From: an uncultured Acidobacteriota bacterium
GTDB lineage: Bacteria > Acidobacteriota > Vicinamibacteria > Fen-336
Reading direction: 5' to 3'
Length of the DNA: 64,000 bases
Assembly: GCA_902826455.1 (NCBI GenBank)
Contig: CADEEV010000021.1
Coordinates: 1-64,000, forward strand
In this document: positions 44,515-57,103 of the stretch, in pieces
Position numbering within the stretch: the first letter of the stretch is position 1
Layout of the letters: the number at the start of each line of letters is the position of its first letter
Made by a program: the position numbers and the translations under genes
Notes under the pieces: generated by a model
What the model was told of the DNA's origin: nothing
The model's database searches: none
What the model saw: the letters and a program-made list of their open reading frames with translations, nothing else

Positions 44515-46536
44515 ATGCGGCTCGTCGCGGCGTCCTTGTTCCTCGCCGGCTCCACCCTCGCGGTCGCTCAGGGTTCGCCCCACAAGGGCATCGAGCCGGG
44601 AGACATCAAGAAGAGCGTCGCGCCCTGCGACGATTTCTTCGAGTACGCGAACGGCGCGTGGCGCGAGGCCAACCCGATGCCGCCCTCGATGGTGCGCTGG
44701 AGCCGGCGCTGGGCCGCGGGCGAGACCACCAAGGAGCAGCTCAAGGGCATCCTCGAGGAGATCTCCGCGAAGCCGGGCTGGCCCGCCGGCAGCGTCGAGC
44801 AGCTGATCGGCGACGACTACGCCGCGTGCATGGACGAGAAGAGCGTCGACGCCCGGGGCGCCGCGCCCGTGAAGCCCTGGCTCGCCGAGATCGACGCGAT
44901 CGCCGACGCCGCCGCCCTCCAGCGCATGATCGGCCGCTTCCACGCGGTCTCGATCCTGGTGCCGTTCGCCCTCGTCTCCGCCTCGGACAACCACGAGCCC
45001 ACGCGCGTCATCGCCGACATCCAGGCCTCGGGGCTCGGTCTTCCCGACCGCGACTACTACCTGAAGCCCGAGCCGCGCTTCGCCGAGGCCCGCGAGAAAT
45101 ACAGGGCCCACGTCGCGAACGTGTTCGGGCTCGCGGGCGTCTCCGCCGCCGAGGCGAAGGCCGCCGCCGACACCGTCTTCACCCTCGAGAAGGCCCTGGC
45201 CGAGGCGTCCCTCGACAACGTCAGCCTCCGCGACCCCCAGGCGATCGACCACAAGACCACGTTCGCGGCGCTGCAGAAGCTCACGCCGCGTTTCGACTGG
45301 GGCGTCTACCTCGACGCCGCGAAGCTGCCGCGCGTCGACGTGAACGTCCAGGAGCCGAAGTTCCTCGAAGCCGTCGACCGCGAGCTCGGGGCGACGCCGC
45401 TCCCGGCCTGGAAGACCTACCTCAAGTGGCACCTGCTGCGCGTCGCGTCGCCGTCGCTCTCGACGCCCTTCGTGACCGAGGCCTTCGAGTTCAACAACCG
45501 CTACCTCGCGGGCGCCAAGGAGATGAAGCCGCGCTGGAAGCGCTGCGTCGAGTCCACGGACCAGCTCCTGGGCGAGGCCCTGGGCCGCAAGTACACGGAG
45601 AAGTACTTCCCGCCCGCGGCGAAGGCGCGCATGCAGGAGCTCGTGAAGAACCTGCTGCTCGCCATGGGCGACACGATCCGGGGCCTCGACTGGATGGAGC
45701 CCGCCACCAAGACGAAGGCCCTCGAGAAGCTCGCGACCTTCAACCCGAAGGTCGGCTACCCGGACAAGTGGACGGACTACAGCAGCATCAAGATCCGTCG
45801 CGACGCGCGCTGGGAGAACGTCGTGGGCGGCCGCGAGTTCTCGGTGCGCGACGATCGCGCCCAGATCGGCAAGCCTGTCGATCGCGGGCGCTGGGGCATG
45901 ACGCCGCCGACCTCGAACGCCTACTACAACCCGCTGCTGAACGAGATCGTGTTCCCGGCCGGGATCCTGCAGCCGCCGGCGTTCAGCATGGACGTGGTGG
46001 ACGCCGTGAACTACGGCGCGATCGGCGTCGTGATCGGCCACGAGATCAGCCACGGCTTCGACGACCAGGGCGCCCAGTACGACGCCCAGGGCCGGCTCCA
46101 GAACTGGTGGACCCCGGCGGACCTCGAGAAGTTCCAGGCGAAGGGCCAGTGCGTCGCCGACCAGTTCGACGGCTACTTCATCGAGCCGGGCGTCCACCAC
46201 AACGGCAGGCTCGTGCTCGGCGAGAGCATCGGGGACCAGGCGGGGGCCAAGATCGCCCTCCTCGCCTACAAGAAGTCCTTCGAGGGCAAGACGCCGCCGC
46301 CGACCCTCGACGGCTTCACCCCCGAGCAGCAGTTCTTCATCGCCTGGGGCCAGTTCCGCGGCGACGCGATCCGGCTCGAGACCCAGCGGCTCATGGTCCA
46401 GTCGGACCCGCACCCCACCGGCAAGTACCGCGTGATCGGCAGCGTATCCAACATGCCGGAGTTCCAGCGGGCCTTCTCGTGCCCGGCGGATGCGGCCATG
46501 GTGCGGCCGAAAGCCACGCGCTGCGAGGTCTGGTGA
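44515..46536 (+). CDS. Secreted M13-family metallopeptidase (neprilysin/PepO-like)
   Basis: 673 residues with a signal peptide (MRLVAASLFLAGSTLAVAQ). The zinc site is GHEISHGFDDQGAQYD with His509 and Glu510, and the third ligand lies in LGESIGDQAG; NAYYNPLLNEIVFPAGIL is the family's substrate-binding strand. The C-terminal VRPKATRCEVW is the conserved M13 end. PCDDFFEYANGAWRE opens the mature domain. It would degrade medium-length peptides outside the cytoplasm. A strong AGGAGG and its own promoter precede it. Confidence 0.96.
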   Translation: MRLVAASLFLAGSTLAVAQGSPHKGIEPGDIKKSVAPCDDFFEYANGAWREANPMPPSMVRWSRRWAAGETTKEQLKGILEEISAKPGWPAGSVEQLIGDDYAACMDEKSVDARGAAPVKPWLAEIDAIADAAALQRMIGRFHAVSILVPFALVSASDNHEPTRVIADIQASGLGLPDRDYYLKPEPRFAEAREKYRAHVANVFGLAGVSAAEAKAAADTVFTLEKALAEASLDNVSLRDPQAIDHKTTFAALQKLTPRFDWGVYLDAAKLPRVDVNVQEPKFLEAVDRELGATPLPAWKTYLKWHLLRVASPSLSTPFVTEAFEFNNRYLAGAKEMKPRWKRCVESTDQLLGEALGRKYTEKYFPPAAKARMQELVKNLLLAMGDTIRGLDWMEPATKTKALEKLATFNPKVGYPDKWTDYSSIKIRRDARWENVVGGREFSVRDDRAQIGKPVDRGRWGMTPPTSNAYYNPLLNEIVFPAGILQPPAFSMDVVDAVNYGAIGVVIGHEISHGFDDQGAQYDAQGRLQNWWTPADLEKFQAKGQCVADQFDGYFIEPGVHHNGRLVLGESIGDQAGAKIALLAYKKSFEGKTPPPTLDGFTPEQQFFIAWGQFRGDAIRLETQRLMVQSDPHPTGKYRVIGSVSNMPEFQRAFSCPADAAMVRPKATRCEVW

Positions 46537-46548
46537 GCCCCGAAGCGG

Positions 46549-46579
46549 TTGAAAGGCGAGGGTTTCGGTGGTAGAAACC
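46549..46579 (+). promoter_or_regulatory. Promoter of the chemosensory operon with overlapping palindrome
   Basis: TTGAAA (46549-46554), a 17-nt spacer and TAGAAA (46572-46577) fit a sigma-70 promoter. A 6-bp inverted repeat GGTTTC/GAAACC (46561-46566 and 46574-46579, seven-base loop) covers the spacer end and the -10, where a repressor could bind. It is the only clear promoter I see before the che genes. Confidence 0.55.
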
Positions 46580-46632
46580 ATAGCCGACCGGCTCCCGAAG
46601 ACGTAAGACCTGCCGCCGGAGGAGAGGAAGAG

Positions 46633-47007
46633 ATGCTCAGGAAGATCCTCGCGGTCGACGACTCCGCGCTGATCCACCAGATGTACAAGCTCTTCCTGTC
46701 GCGCTACAAGAACTGCAAGCTGATCAGCGCGATGAACGGGCTCGAGGCCCTCGACAAGCTGGCCCAGGAGGAGGGCATCGACCTGATCCTCCTCGACATC
46801 AACATGCCGGTGATGAACGGCCTCGAGTTCCTGCAGCGCGTCCAGAAAGAGCCGGCCTACCAGGCGATCCCGGTCATCATCATCTCGACCGAAGGCAAGG
46901 AAGAAGACACGATCCGCGGCCTCAAGATGGGAGCCAAGGGTTACGTGAAGAAGCCGTTCCAAGCCTCGGAACTCCACGGCCTGATCGAGAAGATCACCGC
47001 GGCCTAG
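46633..47007 (+). CDS. cheY: CheY-like single-domain response regulator
   Basis: 124 residues, a bare receiver domain. Acidic residues Asp9-Asp10, phospho-acceptor Asp55 in LILLDINMPVMNG, Ser/Thr in IIISTEG and Lys in YVKKPFQ are all present. It should be phosphorylated by the CheA encoded next. Lacking an output domain, it acts by protein binding, either on a motor or pilus switch or as a phosphate sink. I use the ATG at 46633 after GGAGAGGAAGAG rather than an ATG 28 codons earlier. Confidence 0.93.
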   Translation: MLRKILAVDDSALIHQMYKLFLSRYKNCKLISAMNGLEALDKLAQEEGIDLILLDINMPVMNGLEFLQRVQKEPAYQAIPVIIISTEGKEEDTIRGLKMGAKGYVKKPFQASELHGLIEKITAA

Positions 47008-48812: not shown

Positions 48813-49583
48813 ATGGCGAAGCCTGGAGACGGACGGAAGAAGGGGACCCGCAAGGCCGAGACGCCGCCCGCGGAATCGGGCTGGACCACGCGCAACGAGC
48901 CGATCGTGTTCGACGACCACTCGGGCCGCATCTCGTTGCCCTCCTCGGGCCTCGCGTCGGACATCCTCGCCCGGGCCGACGCCGCCCTCGTCGAGTCGGG
49001 GTCCCCCTCGGCGCTCGTCACGCCCGAGGCGGAGGAGATCGCCGTCTCCGAAGGGTCGGCCTCGCGCGTCCACAACATCTCGTTCTTCTCGGCACCCGCC
49101 CGGGAGGAGAAGAAGGTCGCCGAGGCCACCGAGCACCTCGTCACGTTCTTCCTCTCGGACGAGGAGTACGCGATCGACGTGCGGCTGGTCCAGGAGATCA
49201 TCCGGGTCACCGAGATCACCCAGGTGCCGCGCGCCCCGGAGTTCATCAAGGGCGTCATCAACCTGCGCGGCCGCATCATCCCGGTCATCGACCTCAAGCG
49301 GAAGCTCGGCCTGGGCGAGGTGGAGCTCGCCAAGCAGACGCGCGTCGTGGTTGTGCGCCTGCGCGACCGCCTGATCGGCCTGCTGGTGGACGGCGCGTCC
49401 CAGGTCCTGAAGGTTCCCCTGTCGACGATCGAGCCCGCCCCCGAAGAGGTGGTGGAGATCGACGCGAACTACATCCGCGGCGTCGCGAAGATGGCCGAGC
49501 GGCTGATCATCCTGGTGGACCTGCCGAAGGTCCTCGGGGCCGAGTTGCGCGAGGCGCAGGCGCTTTCCGCAGGCTCGAGCTAG
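48813..49583 (+). CDS. cheW: CheW adaptor with a long N-terminal extension
   Basis: 256 residues. The CheW domain occupies about 108-250 ([46 protein letters not shown]). About 105 residues precede it: a basic start ([12 protein letters not shown]) and an acidic, probably disordered stretch with a short [10 protein letters not shown] segment. CheW couples the MCP to CheA; the extension might bind another cluster component such as the HEAT-repeat protein, which is inference. The binding-protein gene follows after a short gap. Confidence 0.93.
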
Positions 49584-49601
49584 GCAATGAGGAGTCCTGT
49601 C

Positions 49602-50510
49602 ATGAGATATCTCCGGTTGGGGACGCTGTGCGCGGCGGTGCTCGTCGCGGGCGCCGCGTCGGCCGCCGACGTCGCCGTGCTGAAGAGCGCCGACAGCCCG
49701 GCCTGGCGTCCGACCCTCGACGCCCTGCGCCGCTCGGCATCCGGCCACAACGTGACGGAGTTCGACCTCAGGGGCGACCGCGCCGAGGCCGACCGGGTCG
49801 TGGCGAGCCTCAAGGGCAAGCCCGGGATCCTCGTGGCCCTGGGGCCGATCGCGGCCCAGGCCGCCCGCGAGGGTGCCCCCGATTCGCCCCTCGTGTTCTG
49901 CATGGTGCAGGACCCGGCGCGCCTCAACCTGGTGGGCGTGCCGAACGTGACGGGCGTCGCCTACGCGATCCCGATCAAGAACCAGCTTGCGGCGTTCCGT
50001 CTCGTGAACCCGCGCGGGGTCAAGATCGGCGTCGTCTACAACGACGGCAACGTGGGCCGGCTGGTGGACGACGCCCAGAAGGCCGCGGCCATCGTGCGCC
50101 TCAACCTGGTCGCCCGTCCGGTCGCCTCCGAGAAGGAAGTGCCCGAGGCGCTGCGCTCGCTGCTCAAGGGCGACGGGGCCGTCGACGCCTTGTGGATCCC
50201 GCCGGATCCGGTGCTGCTCGGCGACGAGTCGCGCCGCTACGTCCTCGCCGAGACGCTGAAGGCCGGCAAGCCCGTCTACAGCTTCTCCTCGACCCTCGTG
50301 GGCGAGGGCGCCCTCGTCTCGAACGGCCCCGACCTCGGCTCGATCGGGGACCAGGCGGCCGACCTCGTGAACCGCATCGCCGCCGGCGAGCGCGGCAAGA
50401 TCGAGATGCTGGTGCCGCGCGCCGAGCTCGTGGTCAACAAGAAGATCGCCGACAAGCTGAAGATCGAGATTCCGGCCGACGCCCTGCGCGCCGCCAACAA
50501 GGTTTTCTGA
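49602..50510 (+). CDS. Periplasmic binding protein of the TrpX/ABC_sub_bind type, coupled to an MCP
   Basis: About 302 residues. A signal peptide ([21 protein letters not shown]) precedes a two-lobed type I binding fold: [56 protein letters not shown] and [17 protein letters not shown]. It matches the PF04392 (TrpX-like) group, some of which bind aromatic amino acids. I use the ATG at 49602, with AGGAG six bases upstream; an ATG five codons earlier lacks a site. There is no ABC permease or ATPase in the cluster. Its stop overlaps the MCP start by one base (TGATG), so it is probably the MCP's ligand-binding partner. Confidence 0.85.
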
Positions 50511-52819
50511 TGCTGAACCCGAAGAAGACGCGCGTCCGGTCCATCCGCACCCGCCTCGTGCTCCTGGTGACGGCGATCGCCGTGCTGGTGGGCGGCGTCT
50601 CGACGTTCTACGACGTCGTGTCGAGCGAGAAGGTGTTCCGCGAGCAGCTCAGCAAGCGCGGCCGCTACATCGCCGCGAACCTCGCCTACAACAGCAAGTA
50701 CGGCGTCCTGACCGAGGACAAGCCGCTGCTCGCCCAGCTCCTCGACGGCGCCATGTCGTCGGTGGCCGGCCAGGACACGGACGTCGTGGGCGCCATGATC
50801 CGCGACGCGAAGGGCGCGGTGCTCGCCCAGAAGGGCGCGGGCGTCAAGGACCTTCCGGCGGCTCCCGCCACGGCCATCGAGGAGATCGAGGCCGCGAGCG
50901 ACAAGGGCGACGCCGTGATCCTGTTCCGCGCTCCCGTCATGACCACCGGCTCCTCGGGAGGCGGCGCCATGGCCGCGGAGCTCGGTCTCGCGGCGCCGGC
51001 GGCCGCCACGGACGAGGAGCAGAAGGGCGGCGTCGAGATCGTCTTCAGCAAGGCGTTCATGCTGGCCCAGCAGCGCCGGCTCTTCTACACGACGCTGCTC
51101 GTCGGCTCGGTGCTGATCGCCCTCGGCGCCTACGTCGGCTGGTTCCTGATCGGGCGCTGGTTCCGTCCCGTGCAGCTCATGGTGGACGTGGCCTCGGCCG
51201 TCGCCAAGGGCGACCTCACCGAGAGCCTCGAGATCCAGTCCCAGGACGAGATGGGGACGCTGGCCGCGAGCCTCAACGAGATGGTCGAGAACCTGCGCGG
51301 CGTCGTCGACAACATCCAGGAGGCGTCCGTGCAGGTCGCCTCCTCGGCCGGCCAGATCTCCGCCAACGCGAAGCTCATCACGCAAGGCGCCCAGAGCCAG
51401 GCCCAGGCCGCGGAAGAGACCTCGACCTCGATGGAGGAGATGGCGGCCTCGATCCAGACCGTGGCCGGCAACGCCCAGAGCCTCGCCCAGTACGTGGACG
51501 AGACCTCGTCGTCGATCAACGAGATGGGCGCCTCGATCGAGGAGGTCGCGAAGTCCTCCGGCACCCTGGCCGCCACCGTGGCCGAGGCGTCGGCCACGAT
51601 CGAGCAGATGACCGTCTCGACCGACCAGTCGGCGAAGAACCTCGAGACGCTCGCCGAGACCGTCGCCGAGACTTCCGTGACGATCGAGGAGATGACGTCG
51701 TCGATCGAGGCCGTGGCGCGCAACGCCGAGGTGCTCAACACCGCGGCGTCCCGGGCGAGCCAGACGGTCTCCGAGATGGCCGGGGCCGTGACCGACGTCG
51801 CGAAGATCGCCGAGGAGGCCGACCGCATCTCCCAGAAGGCCAGCGAGGACGCCCGCACCGGCGACGTGGCCGTGACCACGACGATCCAGGGCATGAAGAC
51901 GATCTCCGACACCATGGAGAACACCGCCCGCGTCATCACCAGCCTGGGCAAGCGCTCCCAGGAGATCGGCAAGATCCTCGAGGTGATCGAGGAGATCGCG
52001 GACCAGACGAACCTGCTCGCCTTGAACGCCGCGATCGAGGCCGCCCGGGCCGGCGAGGCGGGCCGCGGCTTCGCGGTCGTCGCCGACGAGGTGCGCAAGC
52101 TCGCCGAGCGCTCGGTCGACGCGACCAAGGAGATCGGCGAGGTCATCCGCCAGGTGCAGCAGGAGACGACCGACGCCGTCGACACGGCCAAGGCCGGCGC
52201 CGCCGAGACGAAGGAGGGCATCACCCTCGCGGATCAGGCGGGGCTGGCGCTGCGCCGCATCATCGAGTCGGTCGGCCGGTCGAGCCAGCTCATGGCCGAG
52301 ATCGCCTCGTCCACGGCGCGCCAGTCGAAGGCCTCGTCGGACGTGCTCAAGACCGTGGCCGACATGAACTCGTCCACCGAGCAGGTGACGACCGCCGTGC
52401 GCGAGCAGGCGGCGGGCTCCAAGCAGATCCGCGGCGCCATGGAGCACATCAACAAGATCATGGCGCAGGTCGCGTACTCGACGAAGGAGCAGGCGGCCGG
52501 CGGCCGCCAGGTGCGCCTCGCCGTCGAGAACATGAACAAGATCGCGTCCCAGGTCGGCATCGCGACCAAGGACCAGGCCGACGGCAGCCGCCAGATCATC
52601 CGCGGCGTCGAGAACATGAACCGCATGACGCAGCAGGTCTCGTACGCGACCGCGGAGCAGAAGCGCGGCGGCGAGCTGGTCGTGAAGGCCATGGAGAACA
52701 TCTCGGAGATCGCCCGCGACAACCTGTCGACCGTCGAGGAGATGTCCAAGGCGACCACGAACCTCGCGACGCAGGCCGAGAACCTGGCCAAGCTGATCGC
52801 CGTCTTCCGCTCGAAGTAG
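50510..52819 (+). CDS. Methyl-accepting chemotaxis protein with an extended, 28-residue-repeat signalling hairpin
   Basis: 769 residues. TM1 (about 16-38), a periplasmic region of about 150 residues, TM2 (about 190-212), HAMP (about 215-262) and then a cytoplasmic hairpin of about 500 residues. The conserved tip [21 protein letters not shown] lies near residue 500, followed by [18 protein letters not shown]. The arms are about 235-250 residues each, longer than most MCP classes. Five tandem 28-residue repeats occupy residues 302-441, and five or six occupy about 588-755. There is no C-terminal CheR/CheB tether pentapeptide; the protein ends LIAVFRSK. It starts on the last base of the binding protein's stop codon. 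Confidence 0.95.
51413..51832 (+). repeat. Five tandem 28-residue coding repeats, MCP descending arm
   Basis: Residues 302-441 split into five exact 28-residue units (four heptads each). Unit starts read [40 protein letters not shown] and [10 protein letters not shown], each with a hydrophobic-core pattern and, in most, Glu/Thr/Ser resembling methylation sites. The periodicity is clear in protein; the DNA has diverged, pointing to old duplications kept in register. Confidence 0.85.
52355..52774 (+). repeat. Five tandem 28-residue coding repeats, MCP ascending arm
   Basis: Residues 616-755 split into five 28-residue units beginning [40 protein letters not shown] and [10 protein letters not shown], with EQAAGSKQI-type second halves in the first four. 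A sixth, weaker unit precedes them (588-615). They lie at about the same distance from the hairpin tip as the N-arm repeats, so the two arms appear lengthened together. Confidence 0.85.
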
Positions 52820-52825
52820 GCGGCC

Positions 52826-55186
52826 GTGGACCTGGCCGCAGCGCTCGAGACGCTCCGTTCCGGCGAAGAGTCGCTGCGGCGCGAGACGGTCGACCGCCTG
52901 GGCCGCTCGCGCCTGCCCGAGGCGATCCCGGCGCTGCTCACGGCCGTGGGCGACGAGAGCTGGCCGGTGCGCCAGGCCGCCGCCGAGCACCTGTCGGTCT
53001 TCGAGCCGGGCGCGCTGTTGCCCGCCCTCGAGAGCGCGCTGCGCAACGACGCCGACGCCGGGCTGCGCAACGCCGCCATGGAGATCTACGTGAAGATGGG
53101 CGGCTCGGCCGTGTCGCCGCTCCTCGACCTCCTGAAGGACCGCGACGAGGAGGTCCGCAACTTCGCGGCCGTGATGCTCGGCACCCTCCACGACGGCCGC
53201 GCCGTCGAGCTCCTGATCGCGGCGCTGCGCGACCCGGACATCAACGTGCGTCACGCCGCCGCCGCGAGCCTGGGGCAGATCGGCTCGCCCGACGCCGTGC
53301 CGCCGCTGATCGAGGCGCTGCGCACCGAGCCGTGGCTCCAGTACCCCGCGATCGGCGCGCTGGGCGAGATCGGGGATCCGCGCGCCACCGAGGCGCTGCT
53401 CCCGCTCTTGGGCGACGAGCTCCTGCAGGGGCCGGTGCTCGAGGCCCTCGGCCGCGTGGCCGGCCGCGAGGCGCTGCCGAGCCTGGTCCCGCACCTCTAC
53501 GCGTCCGACCCCGCGCTGCGCAACCTCGCGATCCAGGCCGTGGTGGCGATCGAGCAGCGCGCCACCGAGGGCGGCGAGAGCCTCGACCCCGAGGTGCAGG
53601 CGGCGCTGCGCCAGGGCGACCTCGTCGAGCACCTGCTCGCGACGCTCCTCGACGACGACCCGCAGAACCGGCGCACGGCGGTGATCACCCTCGGCTGGCT
53701 CAAGGAGCCGCGAGCGGAGCCCACGCTGATCGGCCTGCTCGGCGAGGCGGGCCTGCAGGAATACGTGACCCACGCCCTCGTCTCGATCGGCTGCCGCGAC
53801 CGGGCGGCCTACGCGGCCGGGCTGGCCCACGCCGACGACGCGATCCGCCAGGGCGCCCTGCGCTGCCTCGCGTGGATCGCGCCCCCGGGCGCCACCGAGC
53901 TCGTGGCGCCGCTCATCCACGATCCCTCGCCCGAGGTCCGGGCCGAGGCCGTGCAGGCGATCGGCCGGCTCGGCCACGAGGACGCGCCGATGCTGCTCTT
54001 CGAGCTGCTCGGGGACGAGAACGAGATGATCCAGGAGAGCGCCATGGACGCGCTCGCCCGCATGAACCCCGAGCGCGTGGTGCCGCTCCTGCTCCAGGCC
54101 CTGCACTCGACCGACGTCCAGGTGCGGATCCGCGCGGCCGAGACGCTCGGCCTGCTGCGGCAGTCCGACACGGCGCCCGCGCTCATCGCCCTGTCGCGCG
54201 ATCCGCGCGAGCACGTGCGGCGCGCGGCCCTGAAGGCGCTCGGCGAGATCGAGGCGCCGGGCGTGCCGGACCTGCTGCGGGCCGCGCTCCTCGACGAGTC
54301 GAGCCTGGTGAAGCAGCAGGCGGTGCTGTCGCTCGGCAAGCGCCAGGACCTGGAGACCGCCGACGACCTCGTCCCGCTCCTCGACGACCCCGACCCGAAG
54401 ATGCGCTTCGTGACGATCCGCGCCCTGGGGCAGATCCGCAGCCCCGAAGCGGTGCCGAAGCTGCTGCCGTTCCTGTCCGACGCCCGCAAGGAGCTGCGCT
54501 TCGCGGCGGTCGAGGCCCTGGGCTCGATCCGCGCCATGGCCGCGGTGCGGCCGCTGCTCGGCGTGCTCGGCGACGCCGACCGCAACCTGCGGCGGGCCGC
54601 GGCCGAGAGCCTGGGCTCGATCGGCGATCCCCAGGCGGTGCCGTCGCTGATCCTCACCCTGGAGGACGCCCACTGGAGCGTGCGCTGCGTCGCGGCCTCG
54701 GCCCTGGGCCGGCTCCACAGCGCCAAGGCCACGTCCGCCCTCGTCGCGCGCCTCGACGACGAGGACCAGACCGTGCGGCGCGCCGCCGTGCTGGCCCTGG
54801 GCGAAGGCGGCGACGCGCGCGGGGCCGTGCGCCTCATCCAGGCGCTCTCGGACCCCGCGCTGCAGTCGACGGCCCTCGAGGCGCTGCGGCGTCTCGGTCC
54901 GCCCGCGCTGCCCGAGATCGAGCGCAGCTTCCCTCCCGCGAGCCCCGAGGTGCGGCGGCTGCTCGTCGACCTCGTCGGGCGCATGGAGGAGCGCCGCGCG
55001 ACGCGCCTGCTGCTCGCGGCCCTCGCCGACTTCAACGCCGAGGTGCGCGCCGAGGCGGCGCTCGCCCTGGGCGACGGCGGCGACCTGGAGGCGCTGCGGC
55101 CGCTCCAGGGCCTCAAGTCCTCCGACCCGTCGCCCGAGGTGCGTCAGGCCGCGGCGCAGGCGCTGCGCAAGCTGCAACCGCGGTAG
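52826..55186 (+). CDS. HEAT-repeat (PBS lyase-like) protein in the che operon
   Basis: 786 residues of nearly continuous HEAT repeats of about 31 residues, some 24-25 in number, for example SWPVRQAAAEHLSVF, INVRHAAAASLGQIGS and QTVRRAAVLALGEGGD. There is no signal peptide or enzyme motif. The fold is an alpha solenoid suited to protein scaffolding. HEAT-repeat proteins have been reported in some myxobacterial chemosensory clusters. Its position between the MCP and cheR suggests a role in assembling or regulating the array. The start is GTG at 52826; the TAG is four bases before the cheR start. Confidence 0.92.
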   Translation: MDLAAALETLRSGEESLRRETVDRLGRSRLPEAIPALLTAVGDESWPVRQAAAEHLSVFEPGALLPALESALRNDADAGLRNAAMEIYVKMGGSAVSPLLDLLKDRDEEVRNFAAVMLGTLHDGRAVELLIAALRDPDINVRHAAAASLGQIGSPDAVPPLIEALRTEPWLQYPAIGALGEIGDPRATEALLPLLGDELLQGPVLEALGRVAGREALPSLVPHLYASDPALRNLAIQAVVAIEQRATEGGESLDPEVQAALRQGDLVEHLLATLLDDDPQNRRTAVITLGWLKEPRAEPTLIGLLGEAGLQEYVTHALVSIGCRDRAAYAAGLAHADDAIRQGALRCLAWIAPPGATELVAPLIHDPSPEVRAEAVQAIGRLGHEDAPMLLFELLGDENEMIQESAMDALARMNPERVVPLLLQALHSTDVQVRIRAAETLGLLRQSDTAPALIALSRDPREHVRRAALKALGEIEAPGVPDLLRAALLDESSLVKQQAVLSLGKRQDLETADDLVPLLDDPDPKMRFVTIRALGQIRSPEAVPKLLPFLSDARKELRFAAVEALGSIRAMAAVRPLLGVLGDADRNLRRAAAESLGSIGDPQAVPSLILTLEDAHWSVRCVAASALGRLHSAKATSALVARLDDEDQTVRRAAVLALGEGGDARGAVRLIQALSDPALQSTALEALRRLGPPALPEIERSFPPASPEVRRLLVDLVGRMEERRATRLLLAALADFNAEVRAEAALALGDGGDLEALRPLQGLKSSDPSPEVRQAAAQALRKLQPR

Positions 55187-55190
55187 CCGC

Positions 55191-56060
55191 TTGTTCCATC
55201 CCTCAGACCACGACGCCGAGCTCTCCGAGGAGGAGTTCCGCCTGCTGCGGGACTTCATCCACGAGAAGTTCGGGCTGTACTTCGACGACGGCCAGCGCGG
55301 CACCTTGCGCGCGCGTCTCACCGCGCGCCTCTCGGCCCTCGACCTCATGTCCTTCGAGGACTACTACCACTACCTGCGCTTCGGGCCGCAGCGCACCGAG
55401 GAGCTCTCGCGCATGGCGAGCCACCTCACGAACAACGAGACCTACTTCTTCCGCGAGCAGCCCCAGCTCCAGGTCTTCTCCGAGCACGTGCTGCGCGGCA
55501 TCAAGGAGAAGAAGGCGCGGGGCTCGGACCGCGTCCTGCGCCTGCTCTCGGCCGGCTGCTCCACGGGCGAGGAGGTCCACACCCTGGCCATGCTGGTCTA
55601 CGACAGCGGCCAGTTCTTCTGGAACTGGGACGTCGAGATCGTCGGCGTCGACGTGGACGAGGCCGCCCTGGAGAAGGCGCGCAAAGGGGTCTACTATCAC
55701 AACTCCTTCCGAGGCCTGTCCCCGGCGCTCAAGGAGCGCCACTTCGCCCGCGAGGGGAACGGCGAGAAGGTCAAGGACGCCCTGCGCCGCATGATCCGCT
55801 TCCGGACCGGCAACCTGCTCGAGGCGTCGACCTACGAGGGCCTCGGCGCCTTCGACGCGATCCTGTGCCGCAACGTGCTCATCTACTTCTCCGACGTGAT
55901 GATCCGGCGCGTGGTGGAGCACTTCCACCGGGCCCTGGTGCCCGGGGGCTTCCTGCTCCTCGGCCACGCCGAGTCCCTCTCGCGGATCACCGACGCGTTC
56001 ACGCCGATCCGTTTCCCGGGCGCGATGATCTACCAGAAGCCCGAGCGGGAGGGCGCATGA
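55191..56060 (+). CDS. cheR: Chemoreceptor methyltransferase CheR
   Basis: A 289-residue SAM-dependent methyltransferase that methylates MCP glutamates. The N-terminal helical domain has EEFRLLRDFIHEKFGLYF, then TNNETYFFREQPQL, SAM-binding LSAGCSTGEEVHTLAML, and DAILCRNVLIYFSD with PGGFLLLGHAESL. TTG at 55191 is the likely start; no better one is in frame nearby. The stop overlaps cheB as ATGA. The substrate is presumably the long MCP encoded upstream, which has no tether pentapeptide. Confidence 0.94.
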   Translation: MFHPSDHDAELSEEEFRLLRDFIHEKFGLYFDDGQRGTLRARLTARLSALDLMSFEDYYHYLRFGPQRTEELSRMASHLTNNETYFFREQPQLQVFSEHVLRGIKEKKARGSDRVLRLLSAGCSTGEEVHTLAMLVYDSGQFFWNWDVEIVGVDVDEAALEKARKGVYYHNSFRGLSPALKERHFAREGNGEKVKDALRRMIRFRTGNLLEASTYEGLGAFDAILCRNVLIYFSDVMIRRVVEHFHRALVPGGFLLLGHAESLSRITDAFTPIRFPGAMIYQKPEREGA

Positions 56061-57103
56061 AGCGGCGCAAGCCCGTGCGCGTGCTCGTGGTCGACGACTC
56101 GGCCTTCGTGCGCCAGGCCCTGACCCGCATGCTCGGCGGCAACACCGAGATCGAGGTCGCGGGCCTCGCCGTGGATGGCCGCGACGCGTGCGAGAAGGTG
56201 CGCGCCCTCAAGCCGGACGTCGTGACGATGGACATCCAGATGCCGCGCATGGACGGGCTCCAGGCTCTCGAGGAGATCATGGCGGAGACGCCGGTCCCGG
56301 TGCTGCTGCTGTCCTCGCAGACCAAGGACGGCGGCGAGGTGACGCTGCGCGGCCTGGAGCTGGGCGCCCTCGACTTCGTGGACAAGTCCCGGGTGCAGGG
56401 CAACATGAACCTGCTCAACCTGGCCGAGGAGCTGCGCGAGAAGATCCTCGCGATCTCCCGCGTCCACGTGACGCGGCGGCCGCGCCCGGCCCCGCCGGTC
56501 GTGACCGGCCCGGCCCTCGTGCTGGGCCGCCAGCCGCGCGCCGAGGTGATCGTGATCGCGACCTCGACCGGGGGCCCGCCCGCCCTGCAGGCCCTGGTGC
56601 CGCGCCTGCCCAAGGACCTGGCCTCGGCCGTGATCATCATCCAGCACATGCCGGTGGGCTTCACCCGCTCGCTCGCCGAGCGCCTCGACGCTCGCAGCGT
56701 GCTGCGCGTCCGCGAGGCGGAGGAAGACGACCTCGTGGAGCCCGGCCAGGTGCTCGTGGCCCCGGCCGGCGTCCACATGCGCGTGAGGCGGCGCCTGCAC
56801 GGCGTCCGCGTGACGCTGGACGAGGAGCCCCGCAGCGCGCTGCACCGGCCCTCGGCCGACGTCCTGATGGCCTCGATCGCGAAGACCTACGGCCACCGGG
56901 TCCTGGGCGTCGTGCTGACGGGCATGGGCTCGGACGGCGTCGAGGGCCTGCGGGCGATCCGGGCCGCGGGCGGCAAGACCCTCGCCGAGAGCGAGGAGAC
57001 CTGCATCATCTACGGGATGCCGAAGGCGGCCGTGGAGGCCGGCGTGATCGAGCGCTCGGTGCCGCTGTGGGCCATGGCCGAGGCGATTCTTGCCGGAGTG
57101 TAG
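56057..57103 (+). CDS. cheB: Chemoreceptor methylesterase CheB
   Basis: 348 residues. The receiver domain has phospho-acceptor Asp59 in VVTMDIQMPRMDG. The linker FVDKSRVQGNMNLLN is followed by the esterase domain with the catalytic Ser in IATSTGGPPALQAL, His in IIIQHMPVGFTRSLA and Asp in LTGMGSDGVEGLRAI. It demethylates or deamidates MCP residues and is activated by CheA. It overlaps cheR as ATGA. Confidence 0.95.
   Translation: MKRRKPVRVLVVDDSAFVRQALTRMLGGNTEIEVAGLAVDGRDACEKVRALKPDVVTMDIQMPRMDGLQALEEIMAETPVPVLLLSSQTKDGGEVTLRGLELGALDFVDKSRVQGNMNLLNLAEELREKILAISRVHVTRRPRPAPPVVTGPALVLGRQPRAEVIVIATSTGGPPALQALVPRLPKDLASAVIIIQHMPVGFTRSLAERLDARSVLRVREAEEDDLVEPGQVLVAPAGVHMRVRRRLHGVRVTLDEEPRSALHRPSADVLMASIAKTYGHRVLGVVLTGMGSDGVEGLRAIRAAGGKTLAESEETCIIYGMPKAAVEAGVIERSVPLWAMAEAILAGV

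Follow-up and report, generated by a model that had tools for sequence, protein, structure and literature searches.

MiST3 sorts methyl-accepting chemotaxis proteins (MCPs) into twelve length classes under the Alexander and Zhulin scheme, the longest of which is 64H (PMC6943060). A few rare receptors with more than 32 paired heptads have been mentioned, without description (PMC6628036). The order of the che7 genes of Myxococcus xanthus is available from their locus tags, and the receptor they encode, Mcp7, is 821 aa long, has no transmembrane segments and is filed as 40H (PMC3945109). The HEAT protein Cpc7 interacts with CheY7 (PMC11514114).

Here, we examined an MCP gene and the chemosensory cluster that surrounds it (Table 1) in a 64,000 bp stretch of DNA (contig CADEEV010000021.1, positions 1 to 64,000; here called the window) from an uncultured soil Acidobacterium. 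The best explanation, to which we assign a probability of about 0.7, is a transmembrane chemoreceptor with an antiparallel hairpin of 72 heptads and a repeat-grown rod, serving as the sole receptor of a non-flagellar system of Che7-like type. It is a known kind of receptor, ordinary apart from the rod, and what is new is that the rod is extra-long and built of repeats. MCP length classes are set apart by insertions that match between the two arms, but as a rule the module that was inserted is hidden. In this receptor, four units can still be seen in each arm, which makes the growth rule testable.

Table 1. Features of the chemosensory cluster and of the MCP hairpin in the window
Feature	Position (bp)	Strand	Basis or remarks
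CheY-like single-domain response regulator	46549..47007	+	Pfam PF00072
CheA, the sole one found in the genome	47056..48807	+	Profile match
CheW	48813..49583	+	Pfam PF01584
ABC_sub_bind substrate-binding protein, directly upstream of the MCP	49587..50510	+	Pfam PF04392
MCP	50510..52819	+	769 aa; two TM segments; weak sCache_4-like periplasmic domain; HAMP; 72-heptad hairpin
HAMP domain, residues 212-263	51143..51298	+	Pfam PF00672, E 4e-14
N-arm array, four strong units (302-329, 330-357, 358-385, 386-413)	51413..51748	+	Unit identities
Weak fifth N-arm unit, residues 414-441	51749..51832	+	21-29% identity to other N units
Conserved hairpin tip region, residues 498-535, tip G515/E516	52001..52114	+	Alignment to Tsr E391
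Weak unit-like segment preceding the C-arm array, residues 588-615	52271..52354	+	11-25% identity to strong C units
C-arm array, four strong units (616-643, 644-671, 672-699, 700-727)	52355..52690	+	Mirrors the N-arm array
Membrane-proximal C-arm end, residues 728-755	52691..52774	+	Poor repeat unit, 7-18% identity
HEAT-repeat protein, probable equivalent of Myxococcus Cpc7	52826..55186	+	HEAT match
CheR methyltransferase	55191..56060	+	Pfam PF01739
CheB methylesterase with receiver domain	56060..57103	+	PF01339, PF00072; ORF listed from 55865

The receptor gene and its cluster

The gene call in an earlier, sequence-only reading of this DNA was right in its coordinates and frame. The MCPsignal match (Pfam PF00015; residues 440-621) scores 185.9 bits, well over the cut-off of 34.6, and the conserved tip aligns with that of Escherichia coli Tsr, window E516 falling on Tsr E391. 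Co-encoded CheA and CheW likewise mark the protein as an MCP. Almost every column of the tip region is invariant in orthologs. The named relatives of the family are metagenome-assembled genomes of Acidobacteria/Vicinamibacteria. Two members of the family (L016 and L017) have lost the periplasmic domain and kept both 72H arms at unaltered length.

The cluster runs in the order CheY, CheA, CheW, ABC_sub_bind, MCP, HEAT, CheR, CheB. This order is kept in the 72H family loci as far as the contigs extend, except that ABC_sub_bind, found directly upstream of the MCP in 6/8 family loci examined, is absent from the other two. The ABC_sub_bind protein is possibly a ligand-presenting partner of the MCP. 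At locus L146, an ABC_sub_bind gene whose product is 31% identical to that in the window adjoins a 64H receptor. The cluster order minus ABC_sub_bind is also found in three loci with ~96H receptors; L018, L019 and L050 encode soluble receptors with ~48 heptads per arm in Che7-like clusters that include a HEAT gene. When two HEAT queries were used in tblastn searches, by which a divergent HEAT protein could be missed, no HEAT match was returned in the 64H or shorter-class loci examined. Given this outcome of the two-query search in the 64H loci, we rejected the HEAT protein as a general partner of long rods. The next gene upstream of the cluster encodes an M13 peptidase (44515-46536) and ends 12 bases before CheY. 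No plasmid relatives were found at E 1e-30.

The source genome carries one MCP and one CheA, FliM and flagellin were not found in it, and six PilT-family ATPases are over the cut-off. Together, these findings argue that the output of the system is not flagellar, and by analogy it may be exerted through pili or another function.

Length of the hairpin

Length was measured from the HAMP DE(I/M/V/L)G motif to the tip. This distance is 270 residues in 12/12 measured members of the family, which corresponds to 72H by arithmetic on the calibration provided by E. coli Tsr (36H, 144 residues). The arms of the window MCP are 252 and 253 residues long, or 36 paired heptads. Other Acidobacteriota receptors gave distances of 158 (40H), 200 (52H) and 242 (64H), each removed from the Tsr value by a whole number of heptads. 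As the pattern-based HAMP finder left many receptors without a match or with false matches close to the tip, at distances of 32 and 71, the comparison used solely HAMP-to-tip distances in the correct heptad phase. With 36 pairs (270 residues, against 242 in 64H), the window MCP falls outside any class of 64H or shorter (≤32 paired heptads), and on this sequence-based measure its 72 heptads exceed the longest catalogued class. The sequence-only reading had put the arms at ~235-250 residues and near or beyond the longest class; they are slightly longer than that and lie beyond it (36 versus 32 pairs), not merely near it. By this measure of length, the hairpin is not the ordinary short one that it had named among the outcomes that would count against it.

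Where a genome has a single MCP, there are no other receptors to whose length it must conform, and the length of this hairpin might therefore be a product of neutral drift. However, the length is fixed across the whole family, being identical in all 12 members measured, though several of those genomes do carry other MCPs. Drift in a single-receptor genome is weakened by this constancy and we consider it highly improbable.

Matched arrays of 28-residue units

The strong units align without gaps, with pairwise identities of 36-50% in the N arm (302-413) and 39-46% in the C arm (616-727), where each contains an EQ/DQ..G motif. As nucleotides, the strong units are 54-71% identical, and the C-arm repeats are visible in the DNA too (TRF 52424-52651). 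Against a null in which residues were shuffled only within their own heptad position, identity at lag 28 was 0.34 versus 0.15 in the N arm (264-470; z=7.65) and 0.25 versus 0.13 in the C arm (561-769; z=5.3), and identity at lags of 7, 14, 21 and 35 in the arms of the window MCP was not raised above the same heptad-preserving null. The BLOSUM scores of the arrays were reached by 0/2000 shuffles in either arm. The arrays contain no internal indel among nine aligned homologs, and the hydrophobic phase is constant through both.

The repeats had been described as exact, with five units in the N arm and five or six in the C arm. The period is indeed exact; the sequence is not. Four units per arm are strong, and the outer segments (414-441, 588-615 and 728-755) fail on identity (7-29%), so counts of five or six were rejected. 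The strong arrays lie ~102-214 (N) and ~100-212 (C) residues from tip E516, and these mirror positions place them opposite each other, provided that the hairpin is regular. Mirroring had been proposed from a tip at ~513 and arrays at 72-211 and 75-242 residues; with the tip at G515/E516 the mirror is closer than was claimed. Opposed arrays of equal period are thus supported by the lag-28 signal and by the mirror distances. In an AlphaFold2 model built from nine sequences (pLDDT 63, pTM 0.38), the arms are predicted to be almost wholly helical with one break in each, at 365-370 and 660-664. The breaks are ~148 and ~147 residues from the tip, again mirror positions, and would fit a paired hairpin, though with a pLDDT of 63 the register is weakly supported.

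Proposed growth of the rod

When the 72H arm profiles were compared with the arms of 40H, 58H, 64H and ~96H receptors, the ~85 residues nearest the tip aligned at offset 0. Beyond that point, the best offsets were mostly multiples of 28 on both arms, and those against the shorter classes were mainly -28, -56, -84 and -112. In the comparison with 64H, the outermost C-arm windows aligned at -28, which is one unit. The 40H, 64H, 72H and ~96H receptors of this one phylum are approximately whole multiples of 28 residues apart per arm. As the outer regions re-align mostly at 28-residue offsets on both arms, rods seem to grow by paired four-heptad steps, and the earlier proposal that four heptads are the step for paired insertion is supported. 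Both arms of the window MCP would have taken up complete four-heptad units in the stretch that separates the tip-side core from the membrane-proximal end, such that the core layers remain matched.

Myosin rods have a 28-residue repeat. The period seen here could instead be a four-heptad superperiod under selection, maintained as a pattern of charged and small residues, in a rod that was lengthened by other steps. Many 64H receptors, and the ~96H ones, also show a 28-residue period that is weaker and at times confined to a single arm, and the identity between units is modest, both of which are in keeping with a superperiod. Against it, most of the offsets at which the outer parts of the shorter classes fit the 72H profile are multiples of 28, in the N and the C arm alike. 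The strong units are also similar as nucleotides, though protein identity and high GC account for much of this. We consider a superperiod without stepwise growth rather unlikely and favour growth by paired units. The units themselves probably originated by duplication, though a selected superperiod could yield the same similarity. Recent duplication was rejected, as the similarity between units is moderate and common to the whole family.

Methylation and adaptation

The first N-arm unit matches methylation helix 1 of Tsr without gaps (E303 with E304, E310 with Q311), and by inspection residues 728-755 are the counterpart of methylation helix 2, with E744 at the place of E493. Glu or Gln at the methylation heptad position recurs in every strong N-arm unit. 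Residues 303, 310, 331, 338, 345, 359, 366 and 373 are Glu or Gln in 12/12 orthologs and residues 387 and 394 in 9-10/12, all of them sharing the heptad position of Tsr E304/Q311. It had been suggested that the N-arm units resemble methylation sites. They do resemble methylation helix 1 in heptad position, but the strict motif for methylation has a single match in each hairpin arm (309-310 and 632-633). Orthologs interchange Glu and Gln at 310, 338, 345, 366 and 394, that is in 5/12 columns versus 0/14 at the heptad position next to it (p=0.012), in a test that was post hoc and covered the N arm only; with both arms pooled, the interchange was not significant (p=0.24). As the strict motif occurs once per arm and the two-arm test gave p=0.24, we put forward a multiplied adaptation capacity as a possibility. 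The same Glu/Gln-rich heptad position is found in 64H and 96H receptors, and it may therefore be structural.

The units may represent an extended methylation or flexible-bundle segment, and their additional Glu/Gln positions may supply more methylation sites. Compatible with the best explanation, each unit could be a working adaptation module, with CheR and CheB modifying several Glu/Gln residues along the rod. The conservation of these residues, their interchange at five N-arm columns and the presence of cheR and cheB in the cluster speak for such modules, but the post hoc nature of the N-arm test, the pooled result, the single strict match per arm and the perhaps structural role of the position in other classes all weigh against them, and we regard them as doubtful. 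We are a little more sceptical still of a broader version, in which the methylation segment is present as one functional copy per unit pair, forming stacked adaptation layers, and length classes arise by paired gain of 28-residue modules.

Proposed signal path

In the mechanism we propose, the rod would carry the HAMP signal ~38 nm to CheA/CheW, and CheA would then phosphorylate CheY. In 40H arrays the membrane and the baseplate are 24-25 nm apart (PMC7184735), and a further 16 paired heptads of ~1.05 nm each would bring this to ~41 nm for the window MCP. A conserved Gly is present in each strong C-arm unit (636, 664/665, 692 and 720/721), and these residues may create extra hinges, in the sense of PMC6628036. 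By analogy with CheY7 and Cpc7 in Myxococcus, CheY probably acts via the HEAT-repeat protein, which would thus carry the output, and the downstream target is possibly type IV pili. The protein offers a natural case in which to study the distance that a conformational signal can cover in a four-helix bundle, and the question of whether a receptor can acquire more adaptation sites.

Comparison with known receptors and systems

From HAMP onward, residues 196-338 of the window MCP match Tsr 195-339 ungapped, after which the window MCP has an excess of ~126 residues (18 heptads) before the tip. HAMP and methylation helix 1 therefore align gap-free with Tsr (36H), as does the tip, but Tsr is 18 heptads shorter per arm, has another periplasmic domain and belongs to a flagellar system.

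Receptors of the 64H class, which are common in Acidobacteriota, share with the window MCP a hairpin of unbroken heptads and a repeated outer region, but are 28 residues (four heptads) shorter per arm. Their tip reads LNAAIIAAQAGE, whereas that of the window MCP has a different 12-letter sequence, and no HEAT neighbour was found in the 64H loci that were searched. A 64H-type tip is also found in a 1185 aa ORF (L096), whose C-terminal extension is an SBP_bac_5 substrate-binding domain (E 1.6e-75), and the C-terminus of a receptor is an unusual place for a binding protein. Similar long ORFs, with a 64H-type tip and a C-terminal extension of several hundred residues, were seen in L111, L110, L090, L103, L076 and others.

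The ~96H soluble receptors of Acidobacteriota (L018/L134, L019/L135 and L050/L136) resemble the window MCP in their 28-residue period on both arms and in a gene order that includes HEAT. Unlike it, they have no HAMP that could be found, and at ~340 residues from tip to end they are some three units per arm longer.

The M. xanthus Che7 system (CheY7, CheA7, CheW7, Mcp7, Cpc7, CheR7 and CheB7) has the gene order of the window cluster, in which CheY, CheA, CheW, MCP, HEAT, CheR and CheB follow one another in the Che7-like arrangement; we take the Cpc7 gene to lie between mcp7 and cheR7. The window cluster thus appears to resemble Che7 in its gene order and in having a HEAT protein. The receptors themselves differ, as Mcp7 is listed without transmembrane segments, whereas the receptor in the window is transmembrane and 72H.
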